DNA of 56,632 bases from Bdellovibrionales bacterium RIFOXYC1_FULL_37_79 (GTDB lineage Bacteria; Bdellovibrionota; Bacteriovoracia; Bacteriovoracales; Bacteriovoracaceae). The DNA is taken from assembly GCA_001770015.1 (NCBI GenBank), contig MEQB01000043.1, positions 1 to 56,632 on the forward strand, in the 5' to 3' direction. This document shows, in pieces, positions 35,324 to 45,998 of the stretch (positions are counted from its first letter, which is position 1; each line of letters starts with the position of its first letter). Made by a program: the position numbers and the translations under genes. The notes beneath the pieces were generated by a model. The model was not told where the DNA came from, searched no databases, and saw only the letters and a list, made by a program, of their open reading frames with translations.

Positions 35324-36154
35324 TTGAGTTTGGTTATAAATAGCAATGTTTTGGCCCAGGAGTCAGCCAGAAAACTGGTTGATAACAGCGAAAAATATAA
35401 TAAGACGCTCAGGCAGCTTGCCTCGGGTAATCGAATTAATACTGCGGGGGATGATCCTTCTGGAGCGGCCATTAGTAAATTGTTGGAAAGTAAAGTGAGG
35501 AGTTCGAACCAGGCGCTTCGAAACACTAATGACAGTATTAGCTTAATGCAGATTATGGATGGTGGATTTGTTGGAATTTCAGATGTCTTGACCAGACTAA
35601 GGGAACTTACCCTGCAGGCCAGCTCCGACACCATTGGTGATACGGAGAGATCTTTTATTCAAGAGGAAGTCAGAAATAGTTTGGAAGAAATAACGAGAAT
35701 CACCCAAAGTACCAAGTTTAATGATACCCAACTATTATCCCAGACCAAGGGGGATTTGGATTTTCAGATAGGCATCAATCACGGAGGACTTGGACGAAAA
35801 ACGTTTGATTTAGGTTCGGTCAATTGTTCCCTGGAAAATTTAGGCCTGACCACTTTTAACACCAGTACAAAAGAGAATGCGCAAAAGTCCATTGAGCTGG
35901 TTAATAACGCCATTTTACAACTTAACCAGAAGCGCGCATCGATTGGGGGCTTTCAAAATGGATTAGAAGCAACCCGGGCAAAAAATGAAGAATATACTTT
36001 TAACACTGATGCGGCGAAGTCCCGGATCAGGGATGCTGATTTTGCGGAAAAGGCATCAGATCTGGCGAGAGAAAAGATAATGACCGAAGCCACTGCAGGG
36101 GTTTTGGTCAACGCCAACCAAAAGAACGCTCTGGCACTTAAATTAATCATCTAA
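35324..36154 (+). CDS. fliC: flagellin
   Basis: 276 aa, typical of short flagellins without a variable surface domain. The N-terminal D0/D1 helices (LASGNRINTAGDDPSGAAIS) and the C-terminal D1/D0 helices (AKSRIRDADFAEKASDL, then ATAGVLVNANQKNALAL) are both intact. The start is TTG, supported by AGGGGTG 5-6 nt upstream. The gene is isolated from other flagellar genes in this window, and predatory bacteria often carry several flagellin copies. No clear sigma-28 promoter was found upstream. Confidence 0.96.
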   Translation: MSLVINSNVLAQESARKLVDNSEKYNKTLRQLASGNRINTAGDDPSGAAISKLLESKVRSSNQALRNTNDSISLMQIMDGGFVGISDVLTRLRELTLQASSDTIGDTERSFIQEEVRNSLEEITRITQSTKFNDTQLLSQTKGDLDFQIGINHGGLGRKTFDLGSVNCSLENLGLTTFNTSTKENAQKSIELVNNAILQLNQKRASIGGFQNGLEATRAKNEEYTFNTDAAKSRIRDADFAEKASDLAREKIMTEATAGVLVNANQKNALALKLII

Positions 36155-36295: not shown

Positions 36296-37588
36296 GTGAA
36301 CCGATTGAAGCTAGTTGTGATATTGAATTTTTACTTTTTTTCATTTCAAATGTATGCAACGATCAGTGATACATTTGGAATTAACCCTGAAACACTCTCT
36401 CTTGCTCGCTCAAATATTTATTCCCAGTCAAACGTCTATGCGGCCAAGGATAATCCTGCCGGCCTATCAAAACTTTCAAGACCTGCTTTTTCAATTTCAT
36501 ATTTTTATACCAATTTTAATTTAGCAAATGCTAACCAGGGGAGGATCTCTCCTGCCAGTTCTAGAATTGTGGATGATCAGTATGATTCCAGTAAAGCATC
36601 GAGTATCAAGAATTCAATTGTTTCCTTGGCGATACCTCTTTTTGATAATTTGGCTTTTGGATTAACTGGACTCTTGCCAACCACCACGCTTGCCACGGTG
36701 TATACCTCCACTAAAAATGAAGTCAGATACCTGCTTTACGATGATCGCAGTCAACGACCGGAAATCTATTCATCCCTCGGATATAAATTGAGTAAACATT
36801 TTTCTATTGGAGCGGGACTGTTTTATTCGGTGAAAGCCGATGGTACAGTGCAAATTGGCATGAGTACAACTGACGCCGATGCCAGAACCTTGCTTGAGTT
36901 GACTCCAGAATTAATACCTTTTGGAAGCATGAATTTTGATTTTGATCATTTAACCCTGGGAATGTTTTATAGGGCCCCTCAAAAGGCCAAAACCACTATT
37001 AAATACGATATTGACTTTGCGGTACCGGTTGGTTCCGTGCCCTTTACTGGCGGATCTAGTCTGGTGGCTTACTATGATCCACAGATATTGGGTCTGGGGG
37101 CTAGTTATAGTATCAATGCCAAAAATACTCTGCATACTTCCGTTAGAAAAAGTTTTTGGTCGTCATATACTCCCCCCATTATAAGATTGTCGGGAAAGGA
37201 TTTGGAAAGTTATACCAGCGGAAATTATATTTTTGATAGGGTTAGATTAAAAGACAGCTATGATGTTGGTGTCGGGTATGAAATAAAAAAGACAAATCTC
37301 GCCACGAGTTTTCAAAATAATTTTAAATGGGGACTTGCTTATCATGAATCAGCGCTGCCCGATCATCCTCAGAGTTTGGCGGTGGTGGATACCGATCGGG
37401 TGGATATTTCCACCGGAACTGATTTCCTGTTTGGCCCGATGGGAAAGTTTTTGCACAGTGGTCTGACCTTGAATCTGGGATTGGTCTATTCAATTTTAAA
37501 AAAGCAAACATTGATTTCGGATAGTCAAGTTGTGCAGGTCGGGAAGAATATATTTTCTGCAGCTGGAGGGGTAAGTTTTGAGTATTAA
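36296..37588 (+). CDS. FadL/OmpP1-like outer-membrane beta-barrel protein
   Basis: 430 aa from the GTG at 36296, where GGAG is 6 nt upstream. An upstream GTG at 36272 lacks a site. A signal peptide ends near MYAT. The mature start (SDTFGINPETLSLARSNIYS) followed by VYAAKDNPAGLSKL is the N-terminal plug pattern of the FadL family. Alternating hydrophobic strands fill the rest, ending in FEY. FadL-type barrels take up hydrophobic compounds across the outer membrane. The stop overlaps the next gene by 11 bp. A TATAAT lies at 36226-36231, without a good -35. Confidence 0.75.
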   Translation: MNRLKLVVILNFYFFSFQMYATISDTFGINPETLSLARSNIYSQSNVYAAKDNPAGLSKLSRPAFSISYFYTNFNLANANQGRISPASSRIVDDQYDSSKASSIKNSIVSLAIPLFDNLAFGLTGLLPTTTLATVYTSTKNEVRYLLYDDRSQRPEIYSSLGYKLSKHFSIGAGLFYSVKADGTVQIGMSTTDADARTLLELTPELIPFGSMNFDFDHLTLGMFYRAPQKAKTTIKYDIDFAVPVGSVPFTGGSSLVAYYDPQILGLGASYSINAKNTLHTSVRKSFWSSYTPPIIRLSGKDLESYTSGNYIFDRVRLKDSYDVGVGYEIKKTNLATSFQNNFKWGLAYHESALPDHPQSLAVVDTDRVDISTGTDFLFGPMGKFLHSGLTLNLGLVYSILKKQTLISDSQVVQVGKNIFSAAGGVSFEY

Positions 37589-40500
37589 AAAAATAATTCC
37601 TCTTGTGCTTTTCATTATGGTTTTCTGCTTATCTTGCACAAAACAGAAAATTCAAAAACTATCGAACGATCGTACGATGTACAAGTCGGCTCAGGCCTTA
37701 AAGTCTTGTGAGGCGATTGAACTCCCCACTAGTATAGATTTTAATGGAAAATTTCTATATCATTTTTTCAGGTGTTTTTCGGACAAGACTCCGGATGGAC
37801 AGGAGACCATGGGTAGTCTGCTTGACATCATGACCAGTTTTGAAGTGGCCGGAATGGAAAATTTGACCAGCCTTTTAAAATATTCCAAGACCACAAAAAA
37901 TTCTAAAATTGAATATCCTCTGATGCGGACCATGGTTACCTGGGTGGAAAGAGGGGTAGTGAGTGATGATCAGATTGATAGTAAAAACTTTAGTGAGCGC
38001 TTTGGGATCTTGCAAGATTTGCTCAAAGATTTTGATCCATCATTTGCGTTTAATTTACTTTTGGAGAGTCAAAATGATCAGCAATTGCAAACCATCTTGA
38101 ATCTGTCTGGGGATTTGTTTAACAAAATTGATCCCAATATATTTCTTTCTTATTGGAGGAGTTTTTTAGAAAACCATGAGAGCAGACAAAAAGTTATTTC
38201 GGTCATAGATAGTACGGTCAATGATGAGGATTTATGGAGTGAGCTTACTTCTTTAACGAGTTTTTCCCCATCATTTGATTTAAGTAGTGCAAGTCAAACC
38301 AATTGTCTGGATGATTTTCTGGTTACTTATAGTAGAACTGACACTGAAGTTTTATGTCAGATGGATACGGTCCATGAATTGAAAGACGCTGGTGACCGGT
38401 TGGATGAGTTACTGAGAAAACTCGATCAACCAACTAAAAAACAATTTTATCAGTCAACCGGTGAGTTTTTTAAAAATATTACCCAGGTGCCACCGGATCT
38501 GCGATTATCCAGATTACTTAGATTTAAAAAGGGGGCAAGTGATGCCTGGCTTGAACAAAAAAATCCTCTCTTGAACACGATAGGGATTGGCAATCTGCTG
38601 GCAAGTACCAAAGTGCAAGATTTAGATCATTTAATTGCAGCCATCAAGGCCCTGATTGAAGATCCCAATATTCCAGCTTTGTTTTTTGCCAATCTAAAAC
38701 TGGGTAATACTCGCTTGGAAAAGAAGATTATTGATTTGATTTACAAGGGTGGACAGGTCGCTGGATGTAAAAATTTAGTGTTAAGAGGAACCCAGGGTAT
38801 TTCTCAGCAAAACGATTTTTATCGTGTGATTTCCACCTTTTTTTATCCGCATCCCCAGTGTGAGCATGAATTGTCACCAGTTATCAGTTTGGTGGTTCAT
38901 GAACTCAATCGCTTTAATAATTGTGAAAATGATTTTAATGATGAATTCTGTATTTCCCCGGAGACTTTGGCTAAATTCAAAAAATCATTTGCGCAAATTC
39001 CCTTTGATCAATTTTTAAATAATCAAGAAGTGGAGCCGGATCTTTTAAAGAGAGTGGTTGAAAATGCCTTGATGGAGGTGGCCAGTGAGCTTAAAAAAGA
39101 ACCTTATTATTTAAGGTTTAACCATCTGGCTTACGGATTAGTGGATGAAAAGGTTATGAGCGATCTGCGAGATAAGATTTCCAATATGGACCATCTGTCG
39201 CCTGGGTCGCTGGCACTTTTGGATCAGGAGATTAATAATGACGAAAATCTGAATAAAATTTTAGTGAGTGACTTTTTAGAAAAAATCATTGCCCATAAGA
39301 TTGAAAGATTAAAAATGATCTCGTATGAGTTTAATAACGTTGCCATTCATGGCTCGGATTATCGGTTATATAGGGTTTTATCGGGACTCTACTCCAGTGG
39401 GCCTTTGGAAAATTTAATTAACGATGAGTTGAGTTATCCAAGAGTTAAAAAAATATTTGGAGAAAATTTACCAGGCTCAGTTTATAGACTTAAAGAGACA
39501 CTGATGCGAGCTCACGGAAGTGCCAATTTGTTTCATGATAACCGATTGGAGTTTAACGATAGCGAACTGGATTTTAGACTCATTGGAGACAAAAACCGGG
39601 GTATGACTTTTGATGAGAAAGGGGTTTTCAAATTTACCAGGCAAAAACCCCGCCAGCTCAAGGATGTTTTTTCCAACCATTTTTTACGTTTTGAAAGTCT
39701 TTTTAACAATGGTGATTTGATGGGAAAAGACGTGGCGGAACAAAAAGCCGATGAATTCAGCTCATGGATTGAAAATGTTTTTTTTAAACAGGTATCAGCG
39801 ACTGCATATTGGAAGGAAGCACTTAAAAACCATCAGTTTATGCCAAGGCTTGCCAATGAGCGGGATTTTTTTGCGATAACACCTTATACGGTAAATGAAT
39901 TTAGAAAAATTGCCCATTTCAATGCTATTAATTACCTGTCAGTGGTGAATTTTCTTCCATCTGGTGATGAAAATCGCTTTTACATCAGCCAGGACAAGGT
40001 CATCAAAAAGCAATTTATGGGGCCTATGATTAACGGTGAATTTAATTGGAGCACATTTAATTGGCATTATCCGGCAATGTTCAATTGGAAACCGGGGGAA
40101 GATGGCACCATTGCTTTTTCCCATATAAGAAAAACCATAGCTGAATTGATTACACTTGAAAGTTATAAAAAAATGACCAGTAGCGGTCCGTTTCAATTTT
40201 CTCTTGATGAGAAAAATCAAGTTTATGATGTTATAAATCTTTTTGACCATGAAAAAGAAATATTTAAAATATTACAAAGTTTAAACCTGCTTACCCAAAA
40301 CAAGAACAAGGATTATTTACCAGTCTTATCCCTCAAAAACGGTTGTCATTCAGATGCTTCGTCGGCAAGCGATTGTCCCATTACTTTTTTCAAGGATGGA
40401 GAAAATGAGCAACGGGCTTTTAATGATTTGAAAAATTATATCGCTGATATTTATTTGCTTTCACTTTGTCCGTACTTGGATGCCACCCAAGGGGGCATTG

Positions 40501-42182
40501 ATCTGGGAATTATATTGGATAAGAAAGCAGATCTGGATTTTTGCAATAATTTAAATAATAACTATCTGACTGATGCGCACAGTGGTTTCTCAAACGATGA
40601 AATCTATCCCCATAGCTTAAAAAAATCGATCATGATGGATGTCTTAACCATGGGTAAAAGTAATCATTTGCGACCGGGACTGGATAATCTGGTCTCTCAA
40701 ATCCGGTACCATAAGGCCAAACAGCAAAAATATTCAGACACATTGTTGCTTAATTTTTGGTTGAATTCCCCTGCCAGCGTGACCCAGGATATGATGGCAT
40801 ACTCATATAAGTTTAATGGGGATCACAAAGGCTTTAGTTCAGTGAAAAATGGGTTGATGAATGCCTATTTATTTTATGTGGAAAATATGATCAATCATTA
40901 TGCCTCGTCTAGGGTGTATGAGAATGCCCAGGCCAGGTATGGTGCCGAAGTGGCTTATAATGAAGATCCAGAAAAAGGGAAATTATATCATTTTATCTAT
41001 GATGTGATTATCAATACCCACGCGAGATGCCAGCGTAATGAAGTGGTGACTGATTGGTTGGTGGAGATTTTTCATGAACTTAAAAAGAATGATGAATACA
41101 CCGATATGGCGGTGAGATTATTGATCAATCCTTCAGACAGTCAAACCATCAATATGTTCAAAAATCTTTTAGGTCTTTTTATCAAGCGCATAAGAGAAAT
41201 CATGGAAGCAGATCCCGCTTTCTTGCACTTTACCTGGCAACAAAAAGGTAATAAGGTCATCAAACAAGCTTTAAAGCAAGATATCTGGTGGATGCTTACT
41301 GATGTGGTTAATGAGTTCACGCAAGATGAATTAAAGTCTTTTGTAAAGGCGGGACTTGACCTCATTTTGCAGGAACCAAGTGAGCTAGGCCGTACTAAAA
41401 TTTTAATTAAAGAGCTGATAAAATACCTAGGCTTTCAGTCTAGCGCCTTACTGGTGGTCGAGGAAAAGTCAACATCGGTGGGAAAGATTATCCAACACCA
41501 GGTAGCGCAAATATTAAAGACTAAAAACAGTGACCAGGCCATCTTGAGCGTTAATACTCTAATCGAAGAGATTAATAAAAAGCATCTTGATTTTTATGAT
41601 CATGAACCCACCCAGTTAGTTGAACATTTTAACCAGTTGAGTGAATGGGGTTTTGAATCAATGCCCAGGCTCATGAAAACTTATCAGAATCTGGTGGTGA
41701 AAAGGGATAAACTTAAATTACATGATAATTATTTAAAAAATTTAATCAACTCTTTCATATACCCATTTAGAAAGAGTGATGAGGCTCAAGCCAGAGGGGT
41801 AGCTCTTTTTAATTTGTTAAAAATTGATGAATTCGGTTCTTTTGAGACCATTATCAGGCCGATCTTGTTTCCAAGCGAGGATAGGCGATATCAAACCATG
41901 TTTCTTAACTTAATTGATTCGCTTGGAAAAGTTGATGCCGAAGTTTACAAATCATCAATTCTTGTCATGGATCAATTGCTAAGGGGAGCAAAAGTATTAT
42001 TAAATTTTATAACAGAAAAAATAAATTGGGAGTCAGAAACTTCGGATGATGCCATCCTTGCTATTAAGAGTATCAACCGCCTGACTGATTACGATAATGG
42101 AATTTGGAAGGCCCAGGAGGAATTACTTAATACTTGGCTGGAAAAGGGAATAATGTATAGACAAATACCGTTAAAGGAGTAA
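37578..42182 (+). CDS. very large exported, probable lipoprotein of unknown function
   Basis: 1534 aa. The TTG start follows GGAGGGG. The signal sequence (IIPLVLFIMVFCLSC) ends in a lipobox-like LSC, so lipid attachment at about C20 is probable though the -3 residue is atypical. The rest is a helical, mostly hydrophilic protein with scattered cysteines and many DxxF/NxL segments. No repeat unit or catalytic motif is recognised. It is sandwiched in an operon between a FadL-like barrel and three exported START-like proteins. A structural or bridging role in the envelope is inferred from size and context only. Confidence 0.75.
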   Translation: MSIKKIIPLVLFIMVFCLSCTKQKIQKLSNDRTMYKSAQALKSCEAIELPTSIDFNGKFLYHFFRCFSDKTPDGQETMGSLLDIMTSFEVAGMENLTSLLKYSKTTKNSKIEYPLMRTMVTWVERGVVSDDQIDSKNFSERFGILQDLLKDFDPSFAFNLLLESQNDQQLQTILNLSGDLFNKIDPNIFLSYWRSFLENHESRQKVISVIDSTVNDEDLWSELTSLTSFSPSFDLSSASQTNCLDDFLVTYSRTDTEVLCQMDTVHELKDAGDRLDELLRKLDQPTKKQFYQSTGEFFKNITQVPPDLRLSRLLRFKKGASDAWLEQKNPLLNTIGIGNLLASTKVQDLDHLIAAIKALIEDPNIPALFFANLKLGNTRLEKKIIDLIYKGGQVAGCKNLVLRGTQGISQQNDFYRVISTFFYPHPQCEHELSPVISLVVHELNRFNNCENDFNDEFCISPETLAKFKKSFAQIPFDQFLNNQEVEPDLLKRVVENALMEVASELKKEPYYLRFNHLAYGLVDEKVMSDLRDKISNMDHLSPGSLALLDQEINNDENLNKILVSDFLEKIIAHKIERLKMISYEFNNVAIHGSDYRLYRVLSGLYSSGPLENLINDELSYPRVKKIFGENLPGSVYRLKETLMRAHGSANLFHDNRLEFNDSELDFRLIGDKNRGMTFDEKGVFKFTRQKPRQLKDVFSNHFLRFESLFNNGDLMGKDVAEQKADEFSSWIENVFFKQVSATAYWKEALKNHQFMPRLANERDFFAITPYTVNEFRKIAHFNAINYLSVVNFLPSGDENRFYISQDKVIKKQFMGPMINGEFNWSTFNWHYPAMFNWKPGEDGTIAFSHIRKTIAELITLESYKKMTSSGPFQFSLDEKNQVYDVINLFDHEKEIFKILQSLNLLTQNKNKDYLPVLSLKNGCHSDASSASDCPITFFKDGENEQRAFNDLKNYIADIYLLSLCPYLDATQGGIDLGIILDKKADLDFCNNLNNNYLTDAHSGFSNDEIYPHSLKKSIMMDVLTMGKSNHLRPGLDNLVSQIRYHKAKQQKYSDTLLLNFWLNSPASVTQDMMAYSYKFNGDHKGFSSVKNGLMNAYLFYVENMINHYASSRVYENAQARYGAEVAYNEDPEKGKLYHFIYDVIINTHARCQRNEVVTDWLVEIFHELKKNDEYTDMAVRLLINPSDSQTINMFKNLLGLFIKRIREIMEADPAFLHFTWQQKGNKVIKQALKQDIWWMLTDVVNEFTQDELKSFVKAGLDLILQEPSELGRTKILIKELIKYLGFQSSALLVVEEKSTSVGKIIQHQVAQILKTKNSDQAILSVNTLIEEINKKHLDFYDHEPTQLVEHFNQLSEWGFESMPRLMKTYQNLVVKRDKLKLHDNYLKNLINSFIYPFRKSDEAQARGVALFNLLKIDEFGSFETIIRPILFPSEDRRYQTMFLNLIDSLGKVDAEVYKSSILVMDQLLRGAKVLLNFITEKINWESETSDDAILAIKSINRLTDYDNGIWKAQEELLNTWLEKGIMYRQIPLKE

Positions 42183-42187
42183 AAATT

Positions 42188-42889
42188 TTGGCCGTGAATA
42201 AGTTAATCTTGTTTTTTATTATATTGATCCAGAGTTTGGCGATTTGGCCGAGTACTGGTTCTAAATGCATGGATGCAGCCAATTATCGTGAATCATTAAT
42301 TTGCACGGAAAGTCACATAGTATTTAGGGATATAAAAGGTCAGAGGGTGAAAACCATTCATACCCAGCTGGGGGCAATTATTAATTCAGTGGACGTCCAA
42401 AATGAGAGTGATTTGATTGCTACTTTCCTTGATTTTGATTCGTGGGGTAAATATGCTTTGCGAGAAGGTGGAGAGATTCTAGTCTTTAGATCGTCAAAAA
42501 AGCTTAAAGCGCTAACTCAAAATGGAAATGAAATTCTGAGACACTATGCTTATTTTGGCACCAAGGCACCTGCCCCTCTCTATAGACAGTGGGTGCGGAC
42601 GGTGATTAACTACTGGAAGGTGCCATCTCCCCTAAATGTTTTATTGACTTATAAATTTATTAGTGATGATGGCATTAGCCATGTGGAAGGTGAAAAAGTC
42701 CTTATTGGTTCCGAGGGCATGAAATACTACGAAGGGTTTGTGAGCATTATACATGATCCTAAAAGTCTTGATTATATTGTTTACACCGAGTTTTGGTTGG
42801 TGCCTTCAATCAATATTTTGCCTGAATTTGCAATTCCCTCTATCGAACGAGGTTTGGTTGCGTTAGTGAGAGGAATGTTTGAATTATGA
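42188..42889 (+). CDS. exported START-like protein, paralogue 1
   Basis: 233 aa. The TTG start lies 8 nt after AAGGAG, which overlaps the previous stop. A signal peptide ends about GSKCMDA. The core shares with the next two genes: I-CTES, a helix with FLDFDSWGKY, a central RHYAYFGTKAPAP strand, INYWKVPSP, GEKVLIGSEGMKYYEG, and a C-terminal amphipathic helix (PSIERGLVALVRGMFEL). This beta-alpha-beta(6)-alpha plan suits a START/SRPBCC ligand-binding fold, though this is inferred from pattern only. It is the most divergent of the three paralogues. Confidence 0.7.
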   Translation: MAVNKLILFFIILIQSLAIWPSTGSKCMDAANYRESLICTESHIVFRDIKGQRVKTIHTQLGAIINSVDVQNESDLIATFLDFDSWGKYALREGGEILVFRSSKKLKALTQNGNEILRHYAYFGTKAPAPLYRQWVRTVINYWKVPSPLNVLLTYKFISDDGISHVEGEKVLIGSEGMKYYEGFVSIIHDPKSLDYIVYTEFWLVPSINILPEFAIPSIERGLVALVRGMFEL

Positions 42890-43581
42890 AATTGCGTCAA
42901 TTATGGTTATGTTTTGTTATTGTTTTTTCAACTCAAATCTGTGCATCGTTACCGGCGACCATACCCACCAATTGTTTTCAAGAGGATTTAATTTGTTCGT
43001 CGTCTCAGGTGGTCAGCAAGGTTATCGAGGGAATCAAAGAAAAAGTAATTAATATAAACATCTTTGCCCTTTTATCCAAGGAAGATTACTCAGACTATAA
43101 TCAAATCATCAAAATATTTTACGATTTTAATGCTTGGGAAAAAGCGATTTTAAAAACCGGGACGAATAAGGTTAAAATTAAAAAATCGCTTCAACTTGAA
43201 TCCATTATGGTGGGGGATGGAACAGTTATTTATCGACAATATCTTAATTATTCAGTTAAAGGTCCCTCGCCTTTGTTTTACGTCCCGGCCAGGGCGGTTG
43301 GGCATTATTGGCAGATTCCCTCGCCTGAGGAAGTCCTTTATAGCGGGGAATTTATGCATTTAAATAAAGGTGTGTTTGAAATTCCCGGAGAAGATGTTTT
43401 GACAGGAAGCGTTGGCTACCGGTACCACGCAGGTGACTATCATGTTACGGAAGATTTACAGAATTACTATTTGCATTTTAGAGCATTTATAATTCCAGAT
43501 ATCGAATATTTACATGAAGCACTAGCGGTTTTTATTGAAGATGGTTATAAGGCCATTTTAAAAGGATTGTATTTCTTTTAA
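42886..43581 (+). CDS. exported START-like protein, paralogue 2
   Basis: 231 aa with a signal peptide (LWLCFVIVFSTQICA). It overlaps paralogue 1 by 4 bp (ATGA), so translation is coupled. Shared positions include FYDFNAWEKA, RQYLNYSVKGPSP, VRAVGHYW-like PARAVGHYWQIPSP, FEIPGEDVLTGS and a final helix ending in AILKGLYFF. Two cysteines (NCFQEDLICSS) near the mature N-terminus match those in the other copies and may form a disulfide. Confidence 0.7.
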   Translation: MKLRQLWLCFVIVFSTQICASLPATIPTNCFQEDLICSSSQVVSKVIEGIKEKVININIFALLSKEDYSDYNQIIKIFYDFNAWEKAILKTGTNKVKIKKSLQLESIMVGDGTVIYRQYLNYSVKGPSPLFYVPARAVGHYWQIPSPEEVLYSGEFMHLNKGVFEIPGEDVLTGSVGYRYHAGDYHVTEDLQNYYLHFRAFIIPDIEYLHEALAVFIEDGYKAILKGLYFF

Positions 43582-43668
43582 AACCGCTTGATACGATAAA
43601 TCTTTCAACGGGACTTGCTATATTGTAAGTAATCGATAAAATGCCGGTGATAAAGATCAGGAGTTGGT

Positions 43669-44379
43669 ATGTTTAAATGGATTAATCTTTTTTTTAGTAC
43701 ATTCTTTTTATTAGGACTTTCACTTAAAATTTCAGCAGAAACATTGCCGGTAATTCCTGCGGGTTGTTTTGACGAAGCCGTGTTTTGTACTGAAGCTGAT
43801 GTAGTCAATAAAGTTATTGATGGCATGGAACGGGAAGTGATTAATGTCAAAGTATTTATGGTGGCGGGTTTTTCTGATTTTGCCAGTGTTGATGATTTAC
43901 TGGCGCGTTTTTTTGATTTCAATTCATGGGATGAATATTCCAGGAAAGAAGGATCTGAGCGCATCAAATTTAAAGGTCAGACTTCTTCTCAAAATTTAGG
44001 GCCGATTGTCGTGGGCGGCGTTGAGACCCAAAGACATTATGCCCATTATAAAATCAAATCCCCTATTGGCTATATTACGGTTCGTGCGGTTGGATATTAT
44101 TGGATGGTGGAGCCATTTGAAGGTGCAACCGTTAGTGCTAAATTTGAAAATCAAACTTCTGGTACTTTTGAAATTCCTGGCGAGGATGTGCTTCATGGAG
44201 GTGAAGGTTTTAAATATACAGCAGGTAATTTCCATATTAGGAAAGATGAAGAAAATGAGGAATATGTTATGTATTTCAATGCTGATGTAATCCCCAGCAT
44301 TACCATTCTTCCCCATGTTGCCAAGAAACCCATCTTGGGTGGATTTGAATCGATACTCAAAGGGATGTTTAATTTGTAA
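43669..44379 (+). CDS. exported START-like protein, paralogue 3
   Basis: 236 aa with AGGAG just before the ATG and a signal peptide ending near ISAE. It resembles paralogue 2 most closely: GCFDEAVFCTEADVVNKVI, FFDFNSWDEY, RHYAHYKIKSPIG, VRAVGYYWMVEP, FEIPGEDVLHGGEGF and a C-terminal helix ending SILKGMFNL. An 87-nt gap separates it from paralogue 2, unlike the other joints. The function is unknown. Carriage of a hydrophobic ligand between the FadL-like barrel and the inner membrane is a hypothesis. Confidence 0.7.
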   Translation: MFKWINLFFSTFFLLGLSLKISAETLPVIPAGCFDEAVFCTEADVVNKVIDGMEREVINVKVFMVAGFSDFASVDDLLARFFDFNSWDEYSRKEGSERIKFKGQTSSQNLGPIVVGGVETQRHYAHYKIKSPIGYITVRAVGYYWMVEPFEGATVSAKFENQTSGTFEIPGEDVLHGGEGFKYTAGNFHIRKDEENEEYVMYFNADVIPSITILPHVAKKPILGGFESILKGMFNL

Positions 44380-44408: not shown

Positions 44409-44825
44409 TTATGGGTTAACTACAACACCTTTTATGCGAACCTTGTGAGAGAGACCAAGCGCAGATCTCGAAATTTCAGAGATAAAATTATAAGATAAAT
44501 CAAGTTGTGATAAGGATACTAAACCTCGAAAGGTGTTGGCGGGGATCGTCTCGATGTAGTTACTCGCAAGGTTAATCTGTTCCAGTGCCGTTAACCCTTG
44601 GAATGCATCGTGGGAAATTGTAGATATTTCCTCGAATTCCAGACTAAGCTTTTTTATCTGGGCCATTTTTTGCGTAGATACCCGTTTGCAACTTTCTGCC
44701 TCGGTGATTTGCTTGATTTTTAGTCCGATGAGACCACGATGGCATATATTAGTCAGCGTATCTGGAAAAGCTGAACTTATGTTTACTATCATAAAAACCA
44801 TCGTCATTGTCCAAAATTTTTTCAT
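44409..44825 (-). CDS. short secreted leucine-rich-repeat protein
   Basis: 138 aa from the ATG at 44825, preceded by AAAGGAG (an upstream Met at 44855 has none). A signal peptide ends about SSAFP. An N-terminal cap with ICHRGLIGLKI and AESCKRVS, then three 24-residue repeats (LxxINLASNYIxxIP... type), and a C-terminal cap ending GVVVNP. Both caps match the longer neighbour, so this looks like a paralogue that has lost about ten repeats. Secreted LRR proteins usually bind other proteins. Confidence 0.75.
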   Translation of the reverse strand: MKKFWTMTMVFMIVNISSAFPDTLTNICHRGLIGLKIKQITEAESCKRVSTQKMAQIKKLSLEFEEISTISHDAFQGLTALEQINLASNYIETIPANTFRGLVSLSQLDLSYNFISEISRSALGLSHKVRIKGVVVNP

Positions 44826-44861
44826 CAGTAACTCCTTTAAGCACTTTGTTTTCATAGATCC

Positions 44862-45998
44862 TTACGGATTAACAGTAACCCCAAAAATGGTTGTGATTGG
44901 TGACAGCCCTACATCCGACAAGGATATCTCTGAAATTGGGTTGTAAGTAAGATATAGCCATCGAAGGGAGGTCAAGTCCTTAAATGCATTATTTGAAATA
45001 GTGTTGATTTGGTTATTGAAAAGATGAAGTGCCTCCAGTGAGACTAAATTTCTAAAAACATTTTTAGAAATAGTCTGTATCTGGTTAAAGTAAAGATGAA
45101 GGGTTCTCAACGATTTTAAATCTTGAAAGAGATGGTCGGGAATATTCGTGATTTGGTTGCCATATAACAGCAGATGTTCCAAGGAAGTTAAACCATAAAA
45201 AATTTTTTCCGGGAAGATAGTGATAAGATTGTAAGCCAGATGGATCTGGGTTAAGGATTTTAAATTTTGAAAGGTTTTTTCTGAAATTTTGTCAATAGAA
45301 TTTCTAAAAAGAAAAAGTTGGTGAATCTTGGGTAAGTGTTCAAAGGTTTTTTCCGTGAGGGTGCTTAATTGGTTATTGGATAGATTCAAATCCTTCAAGG
45401 ACACCATACCCTTAAAAGCATGTTCGGAAATACTTTTGATTTGATTTAAGGAGAGATTTATTTCTTCTAGGGATTTCAGGTGTTCAAATGCATTGGCGGG
45501 AATGGCACTGATCTCGTTTCGGGATAGATCGAGCATTTCCACGGAGGATAGCCAATGGAAAGTTTCTCTGGAGATGGTGCTGAGCTGGTTATGGGAAAGA
45601 CCCAGCCATTTTAAGGCAGGCAGGTAATAAAAAGCATTTTCCCCGATGGTTTGGATTTGGTTGACATTAAGATTGAGTGCCACCAGTGAATTCAGGTTTT
45701 GAAAGGTATAGGGTGCGATGGAAATAATTTGATTAAAGGAAAGATCCAGTTCCTGCAGGGACCAAAGACCTTGAAAGGAATTTTCGTTGATGGATTGGAT
45801 GCCCCGGTTGGGAAGTGATAGTTGCTGGATATCAGCCATATTTTCCACAGACACTTCCTGGCAACTGACAGCGCCAGCAGCTTGGGCAATTTCATCACCT
45901 ATAATTCCGCGATCACAGATGTTGATAAAAGTCTGGGCTTTCAGAGAGGTTATGGGGCCAAACAAAAGTATCAAGACAATTGCTATAAGATTTTTCAT
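44862..45998 (-). CDS. secreted leucine-rich-repeat protein (13 repeats)
   Basis: 378 aa with a signal peptide (to about SLKA). A capping region has ICDRGIIGDEI and VSC. About thirteen tandem 24-residue repeats of the pattern LxxLxLxxNxIxxIxxxxFxxLxSL run from residue 63 to the end, closing with a cap ending GVTVNP. The repeats are regular enough to read as 72-bp units in the DNA, the longer 'typical' LRR class. There is no membrane anchor, so it is exported free or held by other factors. A 36-nt gap leads to the short paralogue. Adhesion or prey recognition is a possible role, not shown. Confidence 0.88.
   Translation of the reverse strand: MKNLIAIVLILLFGPITSLKAQTFINICDRGIIGDEIAQAAGAVSCQEVSVENMADIQQLSLPNRGIQSINENSFQGLWSLQELDLSFNQIISIAPYTFQNLNSLVALNLNVNQIQTIGENAFYYLPALKWLGLSHNQLSTISRETFHWLSSVEMLDLSRNEISAIPANAFEHLKSLEEINLSLNQIKSISEHAFKGMVSLKDLNLSNNQLSTLTEKTFEHLPKIHQLFLFRNSIDKISEKTFQNLKSLTQIHLAYNLITIFPEKIFYGLTSLEHLLLYGNQITNIPDHLFQDLKSLRTLHLYFNQIQTISKNVFRNLVSLEALHLFNNQINTISNNAFKDLTSLRWLYLTYNPISEISLSDVGLSPITTIFGVTVNP

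Follow-up and report, generated by a model that had tools for sequence, protein, structure and literature searches.

Five consecutive genes on the plus strand of the 56,632-nt window (the whole stretch of DNA analyzed here) raise the question of whether they form an envelope system that takes up a hydrophobic ligand and shuttles it onward, as the initial annotation proposed. Each of the five open reading frames was found where that annotation had placed it. The first (36296 to 37588) encodes a FadL-family outer-membrane beta-barrel of 430 residues with a signal peptide and an NPA motif, and its GTG start at 36296 is accompanied by a GGAG Shine-Dalgarno-like site. The second (37578 to 42182, TTG start) encodes a giant exported protein of 1,534 residues that is probably lipidated. 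Three exported START/SRPBCC-like paralogues follow: paralogue 1 (42188 to 42889; 233 residues, TTG start), which is the most divergent copy, paralogue 2 (42886 to 43581; 231 residues, ATG start), and paralogue 3 (43669 to 44379; 236 residues, ATG start).

The junctions between these genes, from the barrel to paralogue 3, measure -11, +5, -4, and +87 nt, the -4 being an ATGA shared by paralogues 1 and 2 (42886 to 42889). The proposal that most of the genes are joined by overlaps or coupled starts thus holds for the first three junctions but not for the last gene, since the 87-nt gap after paralogue 2 leaves paralogue 3 uncoupled. Scans for promoters and terminators returned hits no more numerous than in shuffled sequence, so the operon boundary cannot be read from them. 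A flagellin gene on the same strand (35324 to 36154) stops about 140 nt upstream of the barrel start, and a tandem pair of exported LRR proteins with BspA-type repeats lies just downstream of the locus on the minus strand (44409 to 45998).

Conservation of a three-gene unit in one bacterial family

A profile search found the giant protein in 9 of 129 genomes of the same bacterial family, representing 8 of its 48 genera, and no further occurrence among 369 genomes of the phylum; a single-protein pattern search of the genome contigs had returned no relatives. A FadL gene sits directly upstream of the giant in all nine genomes (eight genera, one family). Similarly, a START gene lies downstream of the giant in all eight loci that could be assessed, in one of them (genome G025 in our numbering) beyond a two-gene insert. 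A contig break divides the unit in G031, and both halves fit. The nine loci occupy about six genomic contexts, one shared by G007 and G110, one shared by G019, G025, and G104, and one each in G000, G022, G031, and G103. Five of the nine are in metagenome-assembled genomes labelled Bacteriovoracaceae, Bdellovibrionales, Oligoflexia or, probably by mislabelling, Epsilonproteobacteria.

Three START copies in the operon occur in the window only. The five-gene order anticipated by the initial annotation is therefore not what relatives keep; the unit retained is FadL, giant, and one START gene. We conclude that a genuine three-gene envelope module, confined to one family and conserved repeatedly within it, has been amplified at this locus to five genes.

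The partners are not strictly obligate, since START-like genes occur without a giant in seven genomes (for example, between apparent ndk and carD genes) and a second copy of the giant in G104 lies near a broken START gene but lacks an adjacent FadL gene. START genes also occur alone and so are not exclusive to the module. Six of the seven START-only genomes have a FadL-type gene, a post hoc count that is phylogenetically dependent. The START gene by the second G104 giant (L069:3387-4140) appears divided between two frames, possibly reflecting a pseudogene or a sequencing error.

The barrel and its probable coupling to the giant

The barrel matches Pfam PF03349 at 51.6 bits, above the cut-off of 29.7, and is the sole Toluene_X match in its own genome. 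A profile of eight operon-type relatives matched the solved FadL, TbuX, and 3dwo structures at E values of 7e-6 to 1e-3. Residues N53-P54-A55, the NPA motif of the FadL family, are invariant in all eight operon-type FadL proteins with a full N terminus. Together these results bear out the assignment of a FadL-like barrel. The top-ranked NCBIfam model was BamG (NF053685), yet it scored 41.1 bits against a cut-off of 250 bits, and we rejected this identity for the barrel.

Scored with their own profile, operon-type FadL proteins reach 590 to 635 bits and other FadL proteins in the bacterial family at most about 101 bits, a gap that arises partly by construction because the profile was built from operon-type rows. 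The G022 protein, whose gene is divided by a contig break, scores 247 plus 211 bits. The only operon-type FadL away from a giant (G019:C51) is intermediate, at 355 bits. Many genomes of the family also carry a distant second FadL-type gene between apparent rsmA and smpB genes (L106-L122; for example, L106:2590-5162 and L112:1623-4276), and a profile search found none in the genome of the window. The idea that the operon FadL replaces this distant gene was rejected, as G103, G031, and G110 have both types.

The barrel and giant genes overlap by 11 nt (37578 to 37588). The end of the barrel gene, TTT GAG TAT TAA, contains the start of the giant, TTG AGT ATT AA, so that the TTG falls within the codons for a C-terminal Phe-Glu pair; a GGAG-type site precedes it. 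Eight of the nine loci can be read with this 11-nt TTG overlap; in G019, a TTG lies 17 nt in. The giant and the barrel are probably translationally coupled. A C terminus ending in an aromatic residue is itself an expected barrel-assembly signal, and conservation of the overlap may for that reason partly reflect protein constraint.

A giant exported protein without a known family

Searches of Pfam, NCBIfam, and PDB returned no relative of the giant. Its only membrane-like hydrophobic segment is the N-terminal signal, and eight cysteines are invariant besides that of the lipobox, as would suit a protein of an oxidizing compartment. The lipobox in the window, VFCLSC (CLSC), is one position off the strict Prosite-type pattern, and the second G104 copy also misses it; the operon copies in all eight other genomes match it. 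Judged from these sequence features, the exported protein is very probably a lipoprotein, without a known family, in agreement with what had been proposed for it. By the Lol rule of E. coli, lipoproteins lacking Asp at position +2 go to the outer membrane. None of the giants has Asp at this position, which points to an outer-membrane location.

An AlphaFold2 model of residues 21 to 1200, built from five sequences, reached a pLDDT of 41, too low for a fold search, and suggests at most that the protein is mostly helical. Segment-against-segment comparison with hhalign detected no internal repeats (best probability, 7%).

Exported START-like paralogues

The tandem copies are true paralogues, sharing 33 to 38% identity. 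Searches of the whole 4.36-Mb genome recovered paralogue 2 with paralogue 3 at 38% identity (E = 3e-46) and paralogue 1 with paralogue 3 at 33 to 34% (E = 4e-30), and no further convincing homologue. Two motifs had been singled out as shared among the three. FDFNSW persists as a loose form of an invariant D-F-x-x-W, which sits where the second helix begins, but conservation of GEDVL-G does not extend to the wider family. The complete set of invariant residues is C, C, D, F, W, Y, G, G, Y, P, and G; both cysteines are N terminal, and their conservation fits an oxidizing compartment.

The predicted structure of paralogue 3, modelled with AlphaFold2 from seven sequences (pLDDT, 90.1; pTM, 0.87), is a helix-grip START/SRPBCC fold: strands (residues 16 to 44), two short helices (51 to 72), antiparallel strands (76 to 186), and a long C-terminal helix (192 to 210). 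A Foldseek search of PDB with this model gave 30 matches at E ≤ 0.001 with TM-scores near 0.5. It was led at probability 1.00 by the ceramide-bound START domain of CERT (E = 8.6e-5), the StAR-related protein 3qsz from Xanthomonas, and TTHA0849, which upholds the START-like fold proposed initially. The matches span the whole SRPBCC superfamily, enzymes and receptors among them. Neither the three paralogues nor four solo copies matched a START or Polyketide_cyc family in Pfam or NCBIfam. The model shares with the START and StAR-related domains of CERT, STARD4, and 3qsz a predicted helix-grip fold with a long C-terminal helix, but differs from them in its identity of about 10%, its TM-score near 0.5, its lack of a Pfam match, its signal peptide, and an extra N-terminal segment with the two invariant cysteines.

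When 19 START proteins were placed in a tree, copy 3 grouped with the only START gene of the G022 operon (support, 98/86), its orthologue at about 55% identity, and copy 2 with a solo G022 gene (support, 98/94). Because each pairs with a different G022 gene, copies 2 and 3 diverged before the split from the nearest relative. This pairing rejects the triplication as a recent event confined to the window.

A candidate route for a hydrophobic ligand

Known FadL channels let hydrophobic substrates out sideways into the outer membrane and act in uptake (PMC7728783). The locus barrel resembles the FadL, TodX, and TbuX channels of PF03349 in its sequence family (above the cut-off), NPA motif, and length, and differs from them in that barrels of its type make up a separate group of high scores and are accompanied by a giant lipoprotein dedicated to them and by exported START proteins. 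The best explanation, with the case for and against about balanced, is in our view uptake and shuttling, in which the module would move a hydrophobic ligand between outer membrane and periplasm. The barrel, as a FadL-type protein, would take a lipophilic molecule from outside and free it sideways into the outer membrane. The exported START-fold proteins would then extract the molecule, enclose it in the helix-grip cavity, and ferry it across the periplasm, each of the three copies with a ligand or load of its own. The giant, as a probable outer-membrane lipoprotein, could serve as a scaffold or bridge where barrel and shuttle meet, and the hand-off at the inner membrane would fall to other machinery. 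With the giant modelled at pLDDT 41, we infer its bridging role as well as ligand and direction, and a complex among the partners is likewise presumed. The genome of the window encodes two FadB-sized open frames of about 710 residues with a 3-hydroxyacyl-CoA dehydrogenase domain of beta-oxidation type, and one MCE (MlaD) protein; the ligand could accordingly be used as carbon or passed on to an inner-membrane lipid system.

The same class of ligand could travel in the opposite direction, with the START proteins carrying a self-made lipid to the outer membrane, where barrel and giant would insert it or keep lipid asymmetry. START proteins are direction-neutral carriers, the MCE protein could supply the lipid, and FadL-fold barrels with other roles exist, as the weak BamG and PorV matches recall. 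We nevertheless regard outward or maintenance transport as unlikely: the known FadL channels are importers (PMC7728783), and a patchy spread over 9 of 129 genomes is unlike that of a core envelope-maintenance function.

The FadL-like proteins BamG and PorV assemble or secrete surface proteins in Bacteroidota. By analogy, barrel and giant could form an outer-membrane complex with such a task, with the START proteins binding no lipid and serving as chaperones or structural subunits. BamG is the best NCBIfam match of the barrel (41 bits, far under the cut-off), PorV is weakly present in the structure search, and a giant lipoprotein would suit a machine part. Weak matches of this kind are expected within the FadL family, however, the START fold is matched best by ligand carriers, and no secretion-system genes were seen adjoining the module, and we hold this account to be quite improbable. 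Least probable, to our minds, is that the START-like proteins are SRPBCC enzymes or ligand sensors, cyclase- or receptor-like, which act on an imported molecule rather than shuttle it. The Foldseek list does include aromatase/cyclases, thebaine synthase, and abscisic-acid receptors; its top matches are nonetheless START lipid-transfer domains, and the invariant residues show no evident catalytic set.

Comparison with known envelope transport systems

Uptake and shuttling by the module would parallel the MlaA-OmpC/MlaC/MlaFEDB shuttle in combining an outer-membrane barrel, an outer-membrane lipoprotein, and a soluble periplasmic lipid carrier. In contrast to that system, barrel, lipoprotein, and carrier here belong to unrelated families and the operon has no inner-membrane transporter. 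The BstA/BstB/BstC sterol transporters (PMC10942540) likewise provide a hydrophobic lipid path through several envelope compartments, but the protein families differ, BstB being PhnD-like and BstC all helical (PMC10942540). The parts of the module are of known kinds except for the giant, and a limited search of open-access text did not find the FadL-giant-START combination in published work. More tentatively, and with considerable doubt, the module might represent an undescribed lipid-trafficking system in which exported START proteins shuttle lipid among FadL, a giant of periplasm-spanning length, and the inner membrane, the lipids possibly coming from prey or surroundings.

It is largely unclear what takes over hydrophobic cargo from FadL channels at their periplasmic face, and the FadL-lipoprotein-START unit offers a concrete candidate. 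The unit would also allow START-type lipid shuttling to be studied in a non-cytoplasmic setting, and it supplies a functional hypothesis for an unannotated family of giant proteins, found here in one Bdellovibrionota family only.

Additional genes at related loci

The insert between giant and START gene in G025 (L026:11874-15909) comprises two genes. The product of one combines a hydrophobic N terminus with a C-terminal protein-kinase match (E = 5e-18), which is odd for an exported protein. Further, an exported family of about 200 residues without a Pfam match, 38% identical between two genomes (L157:3132-5300 and L069:4246-4839), is encoded next to the additional operon-type FadL of G019 and, in G104, next to the second copy of the giant; these proteins may represent one more type of ligand carrier.
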